Origin: an uncultured Opitutia bacterium
GTDB taxonomy: Bacteria > Verrucomicrobiota > Verrucomicrobiia > Opitutales > Opitutaceae
DNA: 64,000 nucleotides
Direction of reading: 5' to 3'
Assembly: GCA_903859715.1 (NCBI GenBank)
Contig: CAIONS010000062.1
Location: 62,001-126,000 of the forward strand
Below are positions 6,818 through 37,848 of the stretch, piece after piece (within the stretch, counting starts at the first letter, position 1; the number at the start of each line of letters is the position of its first letter). The translations under genes and the position numbers were made by a program. The notes under the pieces were generated by a model. That model saw only the letters and a list, made by a program, of their open reading frames with translations, made no database searches and was not told the DNA's origin.

Positions 6818-6885
6818 GGAATCTGGAACTCAGGAACGCTGGAAAAAGGCATCGGATTGGTTCCAAAGTTCCTGAGTTCCAGATT
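6818..6885. repeat. Inverted 7-nt-period repeat upstream of gcvP
   Basis: AATCTGGAACTCAGGAAC at 6820-6837 is exactly mirrored by GTTCCTGAGTTCCAGATT at 6868-6885, an 18-bp perfect inverted repeat with a 30-nt centre. The arm steps in 7-nt units (GGAATCT, GGAACTC, AGGAACG). It lies between the divergent gcvP and nth genes. Confidence 0.85.
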
Positions 6886-7574: not shown

Positions 7575-7599
7575 CGGCTGGATCGGCGGGTTGTTTTTA

Positions 7600-7768
7600 C
7601 AGGAGGCAACGGAGGGAACGGAGAGACAATCACAAGGCGGTTTTAACCACGGATTTCACGGATTCGATCCGGATAAGGGCATCCTGAGGAATGGAATTGG
7701 GGTCGGGACCATCTGCTCCCTGCTCCGGTTGGTATTATCCAGATCGAATCCGTGAAATCCGTGGTTAA
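7600..7768. repeat. 9-nt-period repeats: one unpaired arm and one inverted pair
   Basis: TTTTTACAGGAGGCAACGGA (about 7596-7615) is an arm with 9-nt steps (ACAGGAGGC, AACGGAGGG, AACGGAGAG). At 7643-7676 an arm built of CCACGGATT, TCACGGATT is mirrored at 7735-7768, giving a 34-nt arm with 1-2 mismatches around a 58-nt centre. The same left arm occurs alone at 43037-43070. Confidence 0.85.
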
Positions 7769-7876
7769 TAAATCCTTTGGTCAGGCCCTCCGCTGCTCCT
7801 GTGAATCCAAATCAGTCTCGCCAGAAAACGGGATTGATTCGCTTGCGGGGGCTGTTCACGGTCTCGCCTCCCTCCA

Positions 7877-15939: not shown

Positions 15940-15993
15940 GAAGAACTCGTGTTGGCGCAATGGCGGCGGGTTGTCAGAGAAATTCGGGGTGTT

Positions 15994-16069
15994 GGTAGCA
16001 GCCGACGTGAGGAGGCTGGGTTTTGCGGCGAACAGAGAGTTTCCCAGCCTCCTTACGTCGGCTGCTACC
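15994..16069. repeat. Inverted repeat, AGCAGCCGACG family (short form)
   Basis: GGTAGCAGCCGACGTGAGG (15994 on) through CTGGG at 16020 is mirrored at 16043-16069 (CCCAGCCTCCTTACG onward). The arms are 27 nt with one mismatch around a 22-nt centre. A longer copy with a nested second palindrome occurs at 19796-20013. Confidence 0.9.
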
Positions 16070-16121
16070 AACCCCGGCGTCGGGGGTTGAAAATTCCCCG
16101 AGCCCCTGCCACGGCTCACGC

Positions 16122-17045: not shown

Positions 17046-17187
17046 GCTCAGGTTTGAGGCGCGGCCATTGTGGCGCGGGGTGTGACAATAGGCTGTGTCG
17101 TTTGACCCTTTTGCGGGTCAGAGAGGAGGCCCCTCCGGGCTAAGCGGGCCGTTTGAATTGGAACGGACCTTGCGTAAGGTGCTCATC

Positions 17188-19773
17188 ATGGATTCCGCCA
17201 AACTCACCGTCATGTCGCGCCAGGCGATCACTGACGCCCAAAATCTCGCCCGCCGCCTCTCGCACAACGAGGTGGAAACCTGGCATGTGCTCGCCGCGCT
17301 CATCGGGCAGGAAAACGGCATCGTCCCGGGCCTGCTCGAGAAGATGTCGGTCACGCCCAGCGCCGTCCAACTCGCGGTCGAACGCGAACTGGAGCGGCTG
17401 CCGAAGGTTTCCGGCAGCGTGGACACGTCCAAAATTTACGTCACCCAGTCCGTCAACGAGGTGCTCACCCGCGCCGAGGACGAGGCCAAGTCGCTCAAGG
17501 ATGATTTTGTCTCCGTCGAGCATCTGCTCCTCGGCCTGCTCGATGTCGCCAAGCCCGACGCGTTGAAGAAGCTCTTCAAGAGCTTCGGCCTCGACCGGGC
17601 GAAAGTACTGACGGCCCTCAAGGAAGTCCGCGGCAGCCAGCGTGTGACGACGGACAACCCCGAGGCGACCTATGAGTCCCTCGAGAAATACGGCATCGAC
17701 CTGGTCGCACAGGCCCGGAAGGGAAAAATGGATCCCGTGATCGGGCGCGACGACGAGATCCGCCGCACGATCCGCATCCTTTCGCGCAAGACGAAGAACA
17801 ACCCCGTGCTCATCGGCGAACCCGGCGTCGGCAAGACGGCGATCGTCGAGGGCCTGGCCCAGCGCATCCTGCGCGGCGACGTACCCGAGGGCCTGAAGGA
17901 CAAGACGATTTTCTCCCTCGATATGGGATCCCTCGTCGCCGGCGCGAAGTACCGCGGCGAATTCGAGGAACGCCTCAAGGCCGTGCTGGCCGAGATCAAG
18001 CAGAGCGAGGGCCGCATCATCCTCTTTATCGACGAGCTGCACGTGATCGTGGGCGCGGGCAAGACCGAGGGCGCGATGGACGCCGGCAACCTGCTCAAGC
18101 CCATGCTGGCGCGCGGCGAGCTGCATTGCATCGGCGCGACGACGCTCGACGAGTACCGCAAGTACATCGAGAAGGACGCCGCGCTCGAGCGCCGCTTCCA
18201 GCCGGTGGTGGTGGACCAGCCGACGGTGGAGGACGCCATCTCGATTCTGCGTGGCTTGAAGGAGCGCTTTGAGCTGCATCACGGCGTGCGCATCCAGGAC
18301 GCCGCGCTCGTCAGCGCCGTCACCCTTTCCAACCGCTACATCAGCGATCGTTTCCTGCCCGACAAGGCGATCGACCTGATGGACGAGGCCTGTGCGATGA
18401 TCCGCACCGAGATGGACTCGATGCCGCAGGAGCTCGACGAGCTCACGCGCCGCGTGCTCCGGCTCGAGATCGAGGAGACCGCGCTCGCAAAGGAAAAGGA
18501 CGACGCGAGCAAGCGCCGGCTCGAATCCCTGCGCAAGGAACTCGCCGAAGCCAAGGAAAAGGCCAGCGGGATCAAGCTGCATTGGGAAAAGGAGAAGGCG
18601 TCCGTCGACAAGGTCCGGAAGCTCCGTGAGAACCTCGAGGCCGCGCGCCTCGAGATGGAGAAAGCCGAGCGCAGCTACGACCTCAACACGGTCGCCCAGC
18701 TCCGCCACGGCAAGATTCCCCAGCTGGAGGCCGAACTGAAGAAGCTCGAGAAGGCCGGCAACTCCACAACTCTGTTCAAGGAAGAGGTCTCCGAGGAGGA
18801 GATCGCCGAGGTCGTTTCCAAATGGAGCGGCGTGCCGGTCACGCGGCTCGTCGAAGGTGAGAAGCAGAAGCTGCTGCGCCTCGAGGAGGTGCTACATGAG
18901 CGCGTTATCGGCCAGCAAGAGGCGGTGTCATTGGTCACCGACGCCATCCTGCGCGCGCGCAGCGGCATCAAGGATCCGCGCCGCCCCGTCGGCAGCTTCC
19001 TGTTCCTGGGCCCCACGGGTGTCGGCAAGACCGAACTCGCGAAGACTCTCGCCGAGACCCTGTTCGACACCGAGGCCGCGATGGTGCGCATCGACATGTC
19101 CGAATACATGGAGAAGCACAGTGTCGCCCGCCTGATCGGCGCGCCGCCAGGCTATGTCGGCTATGACGAGGGCGGGCAGCTCACCGAGGCCGTGCGGCGC
19201 AAGCCCTACGCCGTGATCCTGTTCGACGAGATCGAGAAGGCGCATCCGGACGTGTTCAACGTGCTGCTGCAGGTGCTCGACGACGGCCGCATCACGGATG
19301 CGCAGGGGCGTACCGTGGATTTCAAGAACACGATCATCATCATGACCTCGAACCTGGGGTCGCGTTACCTGCTGGAGGGTGTGACCGGGGACACGATTCC
19401 CGAATCCGTGCGCGAGAGCGTCATGGCGGAGCTGCGCAAGTCGTTCCGGCCGGAATTCCTCAACCGCATCGACGAGACCATTCTCTTCAAGCCGCTGACC
19501 CTCGATGAGATCACGACCATCGTCGACCTGCTGCTCGCCGACCTGAACAAACGGTTGGCAGAGCGCCGGGTTACCGTGGTCTTGGACAAAAAGGCGAAGG
19601 AGTGGGCGGCGGAAAAGGGCTACGACCCGGTCTTCGGCGCACGGCCCCTGAAGCGTTTCCTGCAGCGGAACATCGAGACCAAGCTCGCCCGCGCGCTCAT
19701 CGGCGGCGAGGTGGCCGAGGGCGGCGAAGTGAAGTTCACGGTCAAGGATGACGCGTTGATCATGAAGGCTTAA
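17188..19773 (+). CDS. clpB: ATP-dependent disaggregase ClpB
   Basis: 861 residues from [20 protein letters not shown], the usual ClpB length. Domains in order: Clp N-domain (1-150); AAA-1 with Walker A GEPGVGKT near residue 211 and the [21 protein letters not shown] block; a middle coiled coil (about 405-525) rich in Lys/Glu; AAA-2 with GPTGVGKT near residue 608, [20 protein letters not shown] and sensor [11 protein letters not shown]. It unfolds aggregated proteins together with DnaK. It lacks the IGF/L loop needed for ClpP docking, in line with ClpB. No sigma-32-like or CIRCE element is obvious upstream. The gene ends just before a large composite repeat. Confidence 0.97.
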
Positions 19774-19795: not shown

Positions 19796-20013
19796 GTAGC
19801 AGCCGACGTGAGGAGGCTGGGGCTCACTTGGGTCAATCCACCCGGAAAGGTTGGCCACAAAAAGGCACAAGTTTCCAAGGCCGCCGCTCGACTCGCGAGC
19901 GCGCCTATCGGCGCAATGGCGGCTCCTTCGCAGTCCTGGCACCCTTGTGCCTCTTCGTGGCCAACCCTTCCGGGCTCAAAACCCTGCCCCAGCCTCCTCA
20001 CGTCGGCTGCTAC
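19796..20013. repeat. Nested double palindrome, AGCAGCCGACG family (long form)
   Basis: The outer arms are those of 15994-16069: GTAGCAGCCGACGTGAGGAG at 19796 is mirrored by the segment ending at 20013. Inside lies a second inverted pair with another word: CCGGAAAGGTTGGCCACAAA (about 19849) mirrored by the segment ending AACCCTTCCGG (about 19975). Its CACAAAAAGGCACAAG arm has a 9-nt step. The core has further GC palindromes. The structure suggests one element inserted into the centre of another. Confidence 0.88.
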
Positions 20014-28959: not shown

Positions 28960-28968
28960 GGTTTTGTT

Positions 28969-29137
28969 TAACCACGAAGGACACGAAGAGCACGAAGTCG
29001 GAGCCCAATCCCCAAGCTTTTTTACAGGATGCAACAGAGAGAACAGAGGGAGAGTTTTCTCCATTCCCTCAGTTTCTTTCTGTAAGAAATGATTGGCTGG
29101 GTGTCGGGCCTTCGTGTGCTTCGTGACCTTGGTGATG
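28969..29137. repeat. Nested 9-nt-period inverted repeats
   Basis: Outer arm TAACCACGAAGGACACGAAG (28969 on) is mirrored at about 29109-29137 (CCTTCGTGTGCTTCGTGACC). Inner arm TTTTACAGGATGCAACAGAG (about 29019 on) is mirrored at about 29059-29088 (TCTCCATTCCCTCAG...). Each arm steps in 9 nt. The same two words are nested in the same order at 30641-30813 and 35735-35904. Confidence 0.9.
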
Positions 29138-29152
29138 AAAATCCGAAGCCTT

Positions 29153-30618: not shown

Positions 30619-30640
30619 GCTGGAATTTTGATCGGAAGGT

Positions 30641-30813
30641 TCACCACGAAGGTCGCGAAGAGCACGAAGACCGGATCCAAACCACGAGCCTTTTACAGGA
30701 GGTAACGGAGAGAACGGAGGACGAGGTTTTCTCCGTTACTTCAGTTTCCTTCTGTAAAATGATTGGATGGATCGGCGTTCGACCTTCGTGCTCTTTGTGT
30801 CCTTCGTGGTAAA
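30641..30813. repeat. Nested 9-nt-period inverted repeats
   Basis: Outer arm TCACCACGAAGGTCGCGAAG (30641 on) is mirrored by GACCTTCGTGCTCTTTGTGT (30781 on). Inner arm CTTTTACAGGAGGTAACGGA (about 30694) is mirrored by the segment ending CTTCTGTAAAA near 30758. 9-nt steps: ACCACGAAG, GTCGCGAAG, AGCACGAAG and ACAGGAGGT, AACGGAGAG, AACGGAGGA. Confidence 0.92.
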
Positions 30814-30831
30814 AGACTTCCTAGCCGTGCG

Positions 30832-35674: not shown

Positions 35675-35734
35675 GGGCCTTACGAGAGCACGCCTCATGC
35701 CCGGTGCCAAGACGGGCGAACGGTCGGATTCATT

Positions 35735-35904
35735 TTCACCACGAAGGTCACGAAGAGCACGAAGGCCCGACCGAACTCCAAACCATTTTACAGGAGATAA
35801 CGGAGGAAACAGAGAGTGCTTTCCGAGGGCATTCCTTCGTTCTCTCTGTTTCCTCCTGTAAAAATAGATTCAGGCGGATCGTCCTTCGCGCCCTTTGTGG
35901 TGAA
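35735..35904. repeat. Nested 9-nt-period inverted repeats
   Basis: Outer arm TTCACCACGAAGGTCACGAA (35735 on) is mirrored by the segment ending CCCTTTGTGGTGAA at 35904. Inner arm TTTTACAGGAGATAACGGAG (about 35787) is mirrored by the segment ending CTCCTGTAAAA (about 35862). It lies between the divergent-in-function OppA gene start and the exporter gene end. Confidence 0.92.
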
Positions 35905-37848
35905 CTAAGCCTTGTTGTCGATGGCGGTGCCCTCGAGGACGGCTTCTTCGCGCTCGCGGCGGAACTGGCTCGTGTAGAGTTCGTAGTAATGGCCGCGCCG
36001 CTGGAGCAGCTCGGCGTGCGTGCCGGATTCCTCGATGCGTCCCTTGGTGATGACAAGGATGCGGTCCGCCCGGCGGATCGTGCTCAGCCGGTGGGCGATG
36101 ACGAAGCTGATGCGGCCGGAGAAAACTGTCTCGAGTCCGCGCTGGATGAGCTGCTCGGTCTCGGTGTCGATCGAGGACGTGGCCTCATCCATCACGAAGA
36201 TCTGCGGCTGGGCGAGCAGGGCGCGCGCGAAGGAAAGCAGCTGGCGCTGGCCGGTGGAGAGACGGTTGCCGCCTTCGCCGACTTGCGAGTCATAACCCTG
36301 CTCCATCTGCCGGATGAAGCCGTCGGCGTTCACCAGCGCCGCCGCGGCCTCGACCTCCGCGTCGGTGGCGGTGAGGCGGCCGTAACGGATGTTCTCGCGG
36401 ACGGTGCCCTTGAAGAGATGCGGAGTCTGCAGGACGATGCCGAGCTGGGACTGCAGCCACGCGAGGGAGCGTTCGCGATAGTCGGTGCCATTGATCAAAA
36501 CCTCGCCGGAGACTGGCTCATAGAACCGGCAGACGAGCGAGACGATGGTGCTCTTGCCGCCGCCGGAAGGACCGACCAGCGCGATGGTCTCGCCGGCGCG
36601 GACGGTGAGGTTGAAATCGTGCAGCACGACGGGGCCGCTCTCGTATTTGAACGTGACGTTCCTGAACTCGAGGGTGTCGATCCGGCCGGGCAGGCCGTCC
36701 GGGGCGATAGCGGATTGCGGATACCGGATACCGGATAGTTCTGAATGGGGAACTGGCTTCAGGTTCTGGCTGTGAGCGTCTGGACTATCCGGTGTCCGCA
36801 ATCCGGTATCCGCAATACGCTGCCGGACGGCAGCGGAATCCCGGATCTTCGGTTCCGTCGCCAGCAGCCCCATGACGCGTTCGCCGGCGGCCTGGGCGCC
36901 CTGCATCTCGGTGAGGCGCTGGGCGAGTTGGTTGATGGGGTGGAAAAACTGGCCGGAGAAATTCACGAAGGCCACGAGCGTGCCGAGGCTCATCGCGCCG
37001 CTGGCGGTGAGATAGCCGCCGTGCCAGAGCGCGAGGCCGGAGGCAAGGGCACCGAGCGTCGTGACAATCGGGTAGTAAATGGAGGTCTGCCGGGCGTTGA
37101 GCACGGACGCGTCGAACATCTGCGTCGAGAGCGACTGGAATTCCGCCAGGTTGTCCGCCTCGCGCACGAGGGTCTTGGTCGTGCGGACACCCTGGATGGA
37201 CTCGTTGTAGCCGGCGGTGATCTGGGAGTTGAACTTCCGGATCTCCCGCGAGCTCAGAAGCATCTTTTTCTGGAAATACTTCGAGATGAGGGCGAGGGGC
37301 GGCACGACGCCGATGACGATCAGGCCGAGCTTCCAGTTCATGATGAGCAGGCTGACGGCGATCATGATCACATACGTGATGCCCCAGGTGATATCGAGGA
37401 GACCCCAGCCGATGACGCGCGCGAGCCGGTCGCAGTCGCTGGTGAGGCGCGAGATGAGCCAGCCGACGGGACGCGTGTCAAAGAAGGAGAATTCCAGCTC
37501 CTGCAGCTTGTCGAAGCTGTCGGTGCGGATGTCGTGGGCGAGGTGGTTGGAGAGGCTGCCGGCGAGGTTGATGAAGCTCCAGACGCAGCCGCTGAAGACG
37601 AAGGTGACGACCGCGTAGGCGGCGATGTAGCGGCCGAACGGGGCCGCGGCCCCGTCGCGGACGACGCCATCGATCACCCAGCGCGTGAGCTGGACGAAGA
37701 TGGCATCGCAGACGGCGAGGATGACCGCGGAGGCGAAGAGCGGGAAAAGCAGGCGCCGGTAGCGGAGGGCGCGGCGGAAAATCTTCAGCCACAGGCCGGT
37801 GTTGAGCCGGGACTGGAATTCATCCTCCTGATGGAATTGGGCGGACAT
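35905..37848 (-). CDS. ABC exporter half-transporter (TMD-NBD), second subunit
   Basis: 647 residues. The membrane domain (about 1-330) has six hydrophobic spans and NESIQGVRTTKTLVREADN. The NBD has Walker A VGPSGGGKST, signature RLSTGQRQLLSFARALL (LSTGQ instead of LSGGQ), Walker B IFVMDEATSSID and HRLSTI. It starts 3 bp after the previous gene's stop, so the pair forms a heterodimeric exporter of the MsbA/LmrCD type. The linker (about residues 343-382) is encoded by a complete 7-nt-period inverted repeat, 36704-36815. Substrate unknown: lipid, drug or peptide. Confidence 0.93.
   Translation of the reverse strand: MSAQFHQEDEFQSRLNTGLWLKIFRRALRYRRLLFPLFASAVILAVCDAIFVQLTRWVIDGVVRDGAAAPFGRYIAAYAVVTFVFSGCVWSFINLAGSLSNHLAHDIRTDSFDKLQELEFSFFDTRPVGWLISRLTSDCDRLARVIGWGLLDITWGITYVIMIAVSLLIMNWKLGLIVIGVVPPLALISKYFQKKMLLSSREIRKFNSQITAGYNESIQGVRTTKTLVREADNLAEFQSLSTQMFDASVLNARQTSIYYPIVTTLGALASGLALWHGGYLTASGAMSLGTLVAFVNFSGQFFHPINQLAQRLTEMQGAQAAGERVMGLLATEPKIRDSAAVRQRIADTGLRTPDSPDAHSQNLKPVPHSELSGIRYPQSAIAPDGLPGRIDTLEFRNVTFKYESGPVVLHDFNLTVRAGETIALVGPSGGGKSTIVSLVCRFYEPVSGEVLINGTDYRERSLAWLQSQLGIVLQTPHLFKGTVRENIRYGRLTATDAEVEAAAALVNADGFIRQMEQGYDSQVGEGGNRLSTGQRQLLSFARALLAQPQIFVMDEATSSIDTETEQLIQRGLETVFSGRISFVIAHRLSTIRRADRILVITKGRIEESGTHAELLQRRGHYYELYTSQFRREREEAVLEGTAIDNKA
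36704..36815 (-). repeat. Complete inverted 7-nt-period repeat inside an ABC exporter gene
   Basis: GCGGATTGCGGATACCGGAT (36709 on) is mirrored by the segment 36782-36814 (ACTATCCGGTGTCCGCAATC...). The arms step in 7 nt (CCGGATA, CCGGATT, GCGGATA). Both arms and centre are in frame, encoding RIADTGLRTPDSPDAHS and HSELSGIRYPQSAIA. Confidence 0.85.

Follow-up and report, generated by a model that had tools for sequence, protein, structure and literature searches.

Two kinds of short palindromic repeat come closest to the elements considered here. REPINs have been proposed to move as single-strand hairpins (Bertels and Rainey 2011, PMC3116915). The GTAG-tagged REPs, which may form head-head (HH) dimers, were surveyed in a set of genomes that includes Opitutus terrae (Di Nocera 2013, PMC3733652), and REP dimers inside long palindromes have already been noted there, e.g., in A. 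variabilis and T. roseum. REPs are also targets of IS elements, i.e., IS1397, ISKpn1 and IS621, while ISPsy8 enters a REP hairpin at its symmetry axis and duplicates 3 nt of the target (Tobes and Pareja 2006, PMC1525189).

The DNA analysed here, referred to as the window, is a stretch of 64,000 nucleotides from a freshwater Opitutae bacterium in which several unrelated mirror-repeat families are nested in one another, nearly always mid-palindrome. Like REPINs, the family called A consists of inverted pairs of a short repeat, with the GTAG tags facing outward and a short variable spacer, folds as a single hairpin unit and is present in tens to hundreds of copies; unlike REPINs, it has no linked RAYT gene, and about a quarter of its pairs have palindromic repeats in the spacer. 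The tag, the CAGCC/GGCTG stem and the head-head dimers are those of the GTAG-tagged REPs. In contrast to the dimers described in PMC3733652, the REP pair here mostly forms the outer shell around inner elements of several unrelated families; nesting goes in both directions and reaches a depth of three, and the axis preference is measured against the flanks. Like ISPsy8, the inserts occupy the symmetry axis of the palindrome around them, but the REP-targeting IS elements code for a transposase, whereas here non-coding palindromic repeats would enter each other; among these inserts no transposase-coding one was found. The inner family called B resembles bacterial MITEs in being non-coding, palindromic, dispersed, about 130 nt long and of near-fixed length; at the orthologous sites compared, no target duplication around B was noticed.

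Families A and B in the window and the genome

At 19796-20013, two GTAG-tagged REPs (A) form a REPIN-like pair that encloses an independent palindromic repeat (B). A plain A pair, with 26-nt arms around a 22-nt centre, lies in the same window between a chromate transporter gene on one side and an oppositely oriented reading frame on the other (Table 1). Its pairing reaches outward to 15988-16075 (94% paired), and it folds far better than shuffled sequences (z = -12). In the long form, the outer arms (GTAGCAGCCGACGTGAGGAGGCTGGGGC, 28 nt each) are complementary throughout and their first 26 nt are the arm of the short form. The left one begins 23 nt past the stop codon of clpB (17095-19773). The inner palindrome, CCCGGAAAGGTTGGCCACAAAAAGGCACAAG ... 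CTTGTGCCTCTTCGTGGCCAACCCTTCCGGG, has imperfectly matching arms, with CCCGGAAAGGTTGGCCACAAAAAGGCACAAG on the left and GGCCACGAAGAGGCACAA on the right side. Folded as a single strand, the long form reaches -88.7 kcal/mol, compared to -43.4 +/- 3.4 kcal/mol in shuffles (z = -13), and its palindrome is therefore not a product of chance. A preliminary description of this DNA had given coordinates and words correctly, and its claim that the same arms at 19796 hold a second mirrored element with a different word is borne out. Its arm word, AGCAGCCGACG, is itself correct, but the arms are longer, and the unit is GTAGCAGCCGACGTNAGGAGGCTGG.

Table 1. Coordinates of nested and plain palindromic repeats in the window
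Feature	Position	Strand
REP-A left arm, short form, GTAG tag outward	15995-16020	+
Plain 22-nt centre of short form (canonical A centres 11-24 nt)	16021-16042	
REP-A right arm, short form	16043-16068	-
REP-A left outer arm, long form	19796-19823	+
Left remainder of A centre, long form	19824-19840	
Element B left arm (GGTTGGCCACAAAAAGGCACAAG)	19841-19871	+
Element B core, carries its own GCGCCTATCGGCGC hairpin	19872-19943	
Element B right arm	19944-19974	-
Right remainder of A centre, long form	19975-19985	
REP-A right outer arm, long form, 28/28 complementary to left	19986-20013	-
Second nest, K (TTAACCACGAAGGACACGAAG) around G at 29018-29086	28967-29140	
Third nest, K around G (30691-30759, TTTTACAGGAGGTAACGGAG)	30639-30814	
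Fourth nest, K around G (35786-35863)	35734-35905	
Fifth nest, G-type arms around F (7643-7768, TTAACCACGGATTTCACGGAT)	7595-7808	

The A unit is found in 155 copies in the 3.18-Mb genome (66 forward and 89 reverse, at most 3 mismatches; 100 of the 155 are among the matches listed), while the reversed pattern gives 0 copies. Each arm starts with the 5' GTAG tag, followed by a short stem-loop, i.e., the stem CAGCC/GGCTG around GACGTNAGGA; together with the copy number and the intergenic position of the two window copies, this places A among the GTAG-tagged REPs. The doublet arrangement of REPINs is seen in 42 convergent pairs (84 copies), next to 42 unpaired copies, among the 126 A copies examined. 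No RAYT gene (PF01797) flanked by the same REP was found for A. The family occurs in 6 of 12 genomes of the genus, with no copies in the one denoted G005, and the named relatives that carry plain A pairs are uncultured Opitutae or Opitutia in every case. The idea that A is generally set in small palindromic target sites was rejected on a null result for flank complementarity (2.55 vs 2.52 of 8); the sole copy found in such a site is the short one in the window (GGGGTGTTG / CAACCCC).

The inner word of B gives 88 half-copies, and 38 intact elements pair up from these. In these 38 copies the core between the conserved words is 107-117 nt long, mostly 109 nt, and the conserved inverted ends fade about 13 nt outward, such that B is a MITE-like element with near-constant length and terminal inverted repeats. 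It is found within A, K, K2 and K3 and also free-standing. Of the 38 copies, 8 lie within a larger A or K/K2 palindrome at strict score and 10 do so with looser alignment, while a palindrome beside rather than around B was seen in one of the 38; where K and K2/K3 surround B, up to 35/35 bases are complementary.

Centre contents and the preference for the axis

Repeat families were delimited by eye, and A centres were surveyed for 126 A copies, in stretches chosen around A, B and K, such that the rates given refer to these stretches rather than to the whole genome. The centres of the 42 convergent A pairs are 11-24 nt in 32 cases and 42-202 nt in the remaining ten (42, 82, 89, 105, 125, 147, 147, 166, 190 and 202 nt). 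Nine of these ten long centres are occupied by another palindromic repeat, of at least four families; the exception is the 42-nt one. The occupants are B (three), D (three; a GAACGTTCAACG-type palindrome), a AATCGCAAAGACGC type (two, one of which is only half) and E (one; another GTAG REP pair). They amount to about 80-200 nt of palindromic sequence, which is too short for a transposase gene. The tabulation of centres that had been proposed as a check thus shows a preference for other repeat elements, and the absence of such a preference, which would have spoken against the initial claim, was not seen. Additional A arms adjoin B directly, their partner arm being gone. In three other genomes (G002, G004 and G006), one of four long A centres holds a recognisable palindrome, which is weak.

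The same organization is seen in the K family (arm word TTTCACCACGAAGGGCACGAAG...), where palindromes are either plain, with a centre of 26-60 nt, or long and holding G, F, K2, B or A. Among 28 K palindromes, 13 with short centres are plain and nine long ones are palindrome-filled at strict score, with 0 palindromes found outside K by the same scoring. The locus C69:76754 (contig:position) is a triple nest, K{K2{F}}, where braces denote the enclosed element; it forms a single near-continuous stem when folded. Another locus, C9:152009, is apparently G{K3{B}}. F has been found within K, K2 and G, and the genus contains at least eight palindromic repeat families (A, B, D, E, F, G, K and K2).

Some observations concern the arms themselves. 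In the window nests at 28967-29140, 30639-30814, 35734-35905 and 7595-7808, repeats of approximately 9 nt (CACGAAGNN, CGCGAAGNN, CACGGATNN and AACGGAGNN) make up the K, K2, F and G arms, which look like derivatives of a single design. At L243 and at C9:129182, K2 lies within K with its arms in the opposite order, the right one leading, which looks like a flip of the inner segment. Tandem K arms, all on one strand and with a 127-nt period, are found in a different genus of the class (G023, contig C20:55744-56662).

The position of the inner elements was compared with the flanks by applying one scoring of inverted repeats to the interior and the surroundings of 71 A and K palindromes. Foreign palindromes were found 15 times in the centre, 0 times within 60 nt outside and once within 200 nt outside, even though the outside target is 4.5 times larger for 60 nt (binomial P ~7e-12) and 15 times larger for 200 nt (P ~1e-17); these P values count composites copied whole as separate cases, and some K loci had been picked because they surround A or B. 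The mean distance of the inner element from the outer axis is 7.8 nt, compared to 27.7 nt expected for uniform placement. Because the requirement for both arms hides insertions into an arm, half arms were sought separately, and in the stretches examined no insert was found to interrupt an A arm or to lie beside half an A arm. The preference of inner repeats for the symmetry axis is thus well supported, and the data suggest that the hairpin tip is the place where new repeats land or are kept. The preliminary description had called the centre a preferred insertion site and placed a hotspot at the hairpin tip; the preference for the centre stands, the hairpin tip is a putative physical reason for it, and not every nest need stem from an insertion of its own.

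Orthologous loci in related genomes

Nested and plain loci of the genome under study (G000) were located at orthologous places in a sister species (G011). Many are nested in both, e.g., C48:8410 (A{K3}), C65:80417 (A{D}), C39:35012 (A{B}), C4:12640 (K{B}) and C6:41775 (K{F}), as well as others and the G{F} nest of the window; many nests are therefore older than the species split. About 12 loci hold plain A pairs in both species. At C30:3928, A{D} with a centre of 147 nt in G000 corresponds in G011 to an A pair that has an identical junction (TCAAGCGC|GTAG) but lacks D and has a centre of 19 nt; an outgroup (G004) has no A at this place. The comparison supports a later insertion of D into A; the 19-nt centre could in principle instead stem from a deletion. 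Among the loci compared, clean polarity is seen only here.

Other loci differ between the genomes in various ways. At C24:28285, where G000 has A{B}, the left A arm is shared with G011 but the palindrome after it is another one. At C9:151970, B has been lost from G011, where K3 and a remnant of B are kept; a gain of B in G000 was considered and rejected, as the remnant reflects deletion of B. The triple nest at C69:76754 was withdrawn as proof of insertion, since rearranged pieces of K2 and F are found there in G005, and the deeper nest may be ancestral, judging from the sequences compared. In G011, C65:15390 is entirely empty (14 vs 237 nt), the long window locus lacks B and retains the left A arm in eroded form, and the short window A is missing as a whole. 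At C51:12288, G005 has D without clear A arms. The A{D} composites at C51 and C30 have a common junction sequence, which indicates that the composite was copied as a unit. Some composites are thus copied whole and some changes of state are losses. At the loci compared, no insertion event and no recognisable target duplication was observed.

One intergenic gap often holds unrelated palindromes in different species. At four such orthologous gaps (G011 L295, L285, L290 and L277), A in G000 is opposed to K{K2}, TCATTCTGAGCGGAGCGACGAATC or AGTTGGGAGATGG types, and K to G. The plain A centres at C10:5440 and C36:15394 are wholly different in G000 and G011 while the arms are unchanged. The gaps that contain two further palindromes of the window, 6820-6885 (AATCTGGAACTCAGGAACGC) and 36706-36821 (GATAGCGGATTGCGGATACC), are longer than those of G005 by about 55 and 78 nt.

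Origin and persistence of the nests

On balance, we consider it probable that the loop of A was later occupied by B and that palindromes in this genus enter older ones near the axis. A palindrome would extrude as a hairpin, on the lagging-strand template or as a cruciform, and its single-stranded loop would be an accessible target to which a hairpin-shaped single-strand intermediate of another element could be joined. Such movement, proposed for REPINs (PMC3116915), is established for the IS200/IS605 family (PMC6006769). The new element would come to lie on the older axis or no more than about 10 nt away from it, leaving the outer arms intact and paired, while insertions into arms or flanks would be either not made or not kept. 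The inserted palindromes would themselves be open to entry, giving nests up to three deep.

A nest might also form once and then spread by recombination (gene conversion) between identical arms, which swaps the centres. The A-to-D sequence shared by the C30 and C51 composites (TC[GC]GATGTCGGACGAGGC) fits such a process, as do the recurrence of K{G}, whose junctions are similar in four or more G000 copies and one G011 copy, and the differing centres of the two plain A pairs. However, the inner families occur alone and in several outer families, which requires many independent unions, and the K arms match each other in copy-specific letters, unlike the outcome of free arm exchange. This is less likely than entry near the axis but a serious alternative, and centre exchange between arms probably contributes to nesting. 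Crowding, in which short gaps attract all families and nesting is coincidental or an artefact of needing both outer arms, would account for the different palindromes found in one gap across species, but it is very hard to reconcile with 15 elements inside against none within 60 nt of a larger outside target and with the absence of half A arms beside inserts, and we give it hardly any weight.

The reverse order of events, where outer arms are added around an existing inner palindrome or the composite has always moved whole, is improbable. It has in its favour the composites that were clearly copied as a unit and the D without clear A arms in G005, but that genome has no A copies at all, such that the arms at C51 may have eroded there. 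Moreover, most outer pairs are plain with a tight centre of 11-24 nt, a plain A is found in G011 where G000 has A{D}, and there is no simple mechanism by which a matched pair of arms could be placed around an insert in one step. At the hairpin tip, template switching during replication or the repair of a break could copy in nearby or distant palindromic sequence without a transposase. It would agree with the lack of a transposase linked to A, B or K and with the status of palindromes as break and rearrangement hotspots (PMC3315005 and PMC4245961). This route is nevertheless unlikely, because SbcCD, the usual hairpin-tip nuclease, was not detected and because the inserts are mostly whole elements of near-fixed length (B core 107-117 nt) instead of random fragments.

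Entry of palindromes near the axis of older ones, the reading preferred here, leaves the question of the mobiliser. No transposase tied to A, B, K or G was found. None of the 19 PF01797 loci inspected has an A copy nearby, and G002 and G006 carry A without any PF01797 match; a RAYT as mobiliser of A is thus unsupported, the two PF01797 genes of G000 not being near A. One of these, on contig C48 (L032:24-550), is RAYT-like and has GTAGGGCGAATCCTCCGGATGAGCC, a second GTAG REP family, on both sides; gene and flanking repeats are likely a REPtron. A REP similar to GTAGGGCGAATCCTCCGGATGAGCC (family E) is found inside A at C39:6739. The other gene, on contig C47 (L031:1410-2460), encodes a 335-aa PF01797 protein and is bracketed by GGGGTCAGCCCCTAACCTTTGTGG and its inverse; a gene of similar size is present as a single copy in several members of the genus.

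The nuclease SbcCD cuts hairpins of this kind, and its near absence would allow long palindromes to persist. The SbcD model TIGR00619 scores over cut-off in 0 of 12 genomes of the genus and in 3 of 76 members of the class, compared to matches in 13 of 14 control genomes, 8 of which are over cut-off. The class-wide lack of SbcCD does not by itself explain nesting.

A more general proposal can be put forward only tentatively, namely that hairpin tips may be a general acceptor for non-coding palindromic elements in SbcCD-poor Verrucomicrobiae, where unrelated families would harbour at one another's axes by single-strand hairpin-to-hairpin joining and the nests would record the order of arrival. 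If this is the case, small mobile repeats would dock at the hairpin axis recurrently rather than by occasional accident, and the plain, singly nested and multiply nested sites would form a natural series for testing the single-strand target model for REP-like elements. The nests would then also serve as a relative clock of element activity, and the persistence of long palindromes would be tied to the missing hairpin nuclease.
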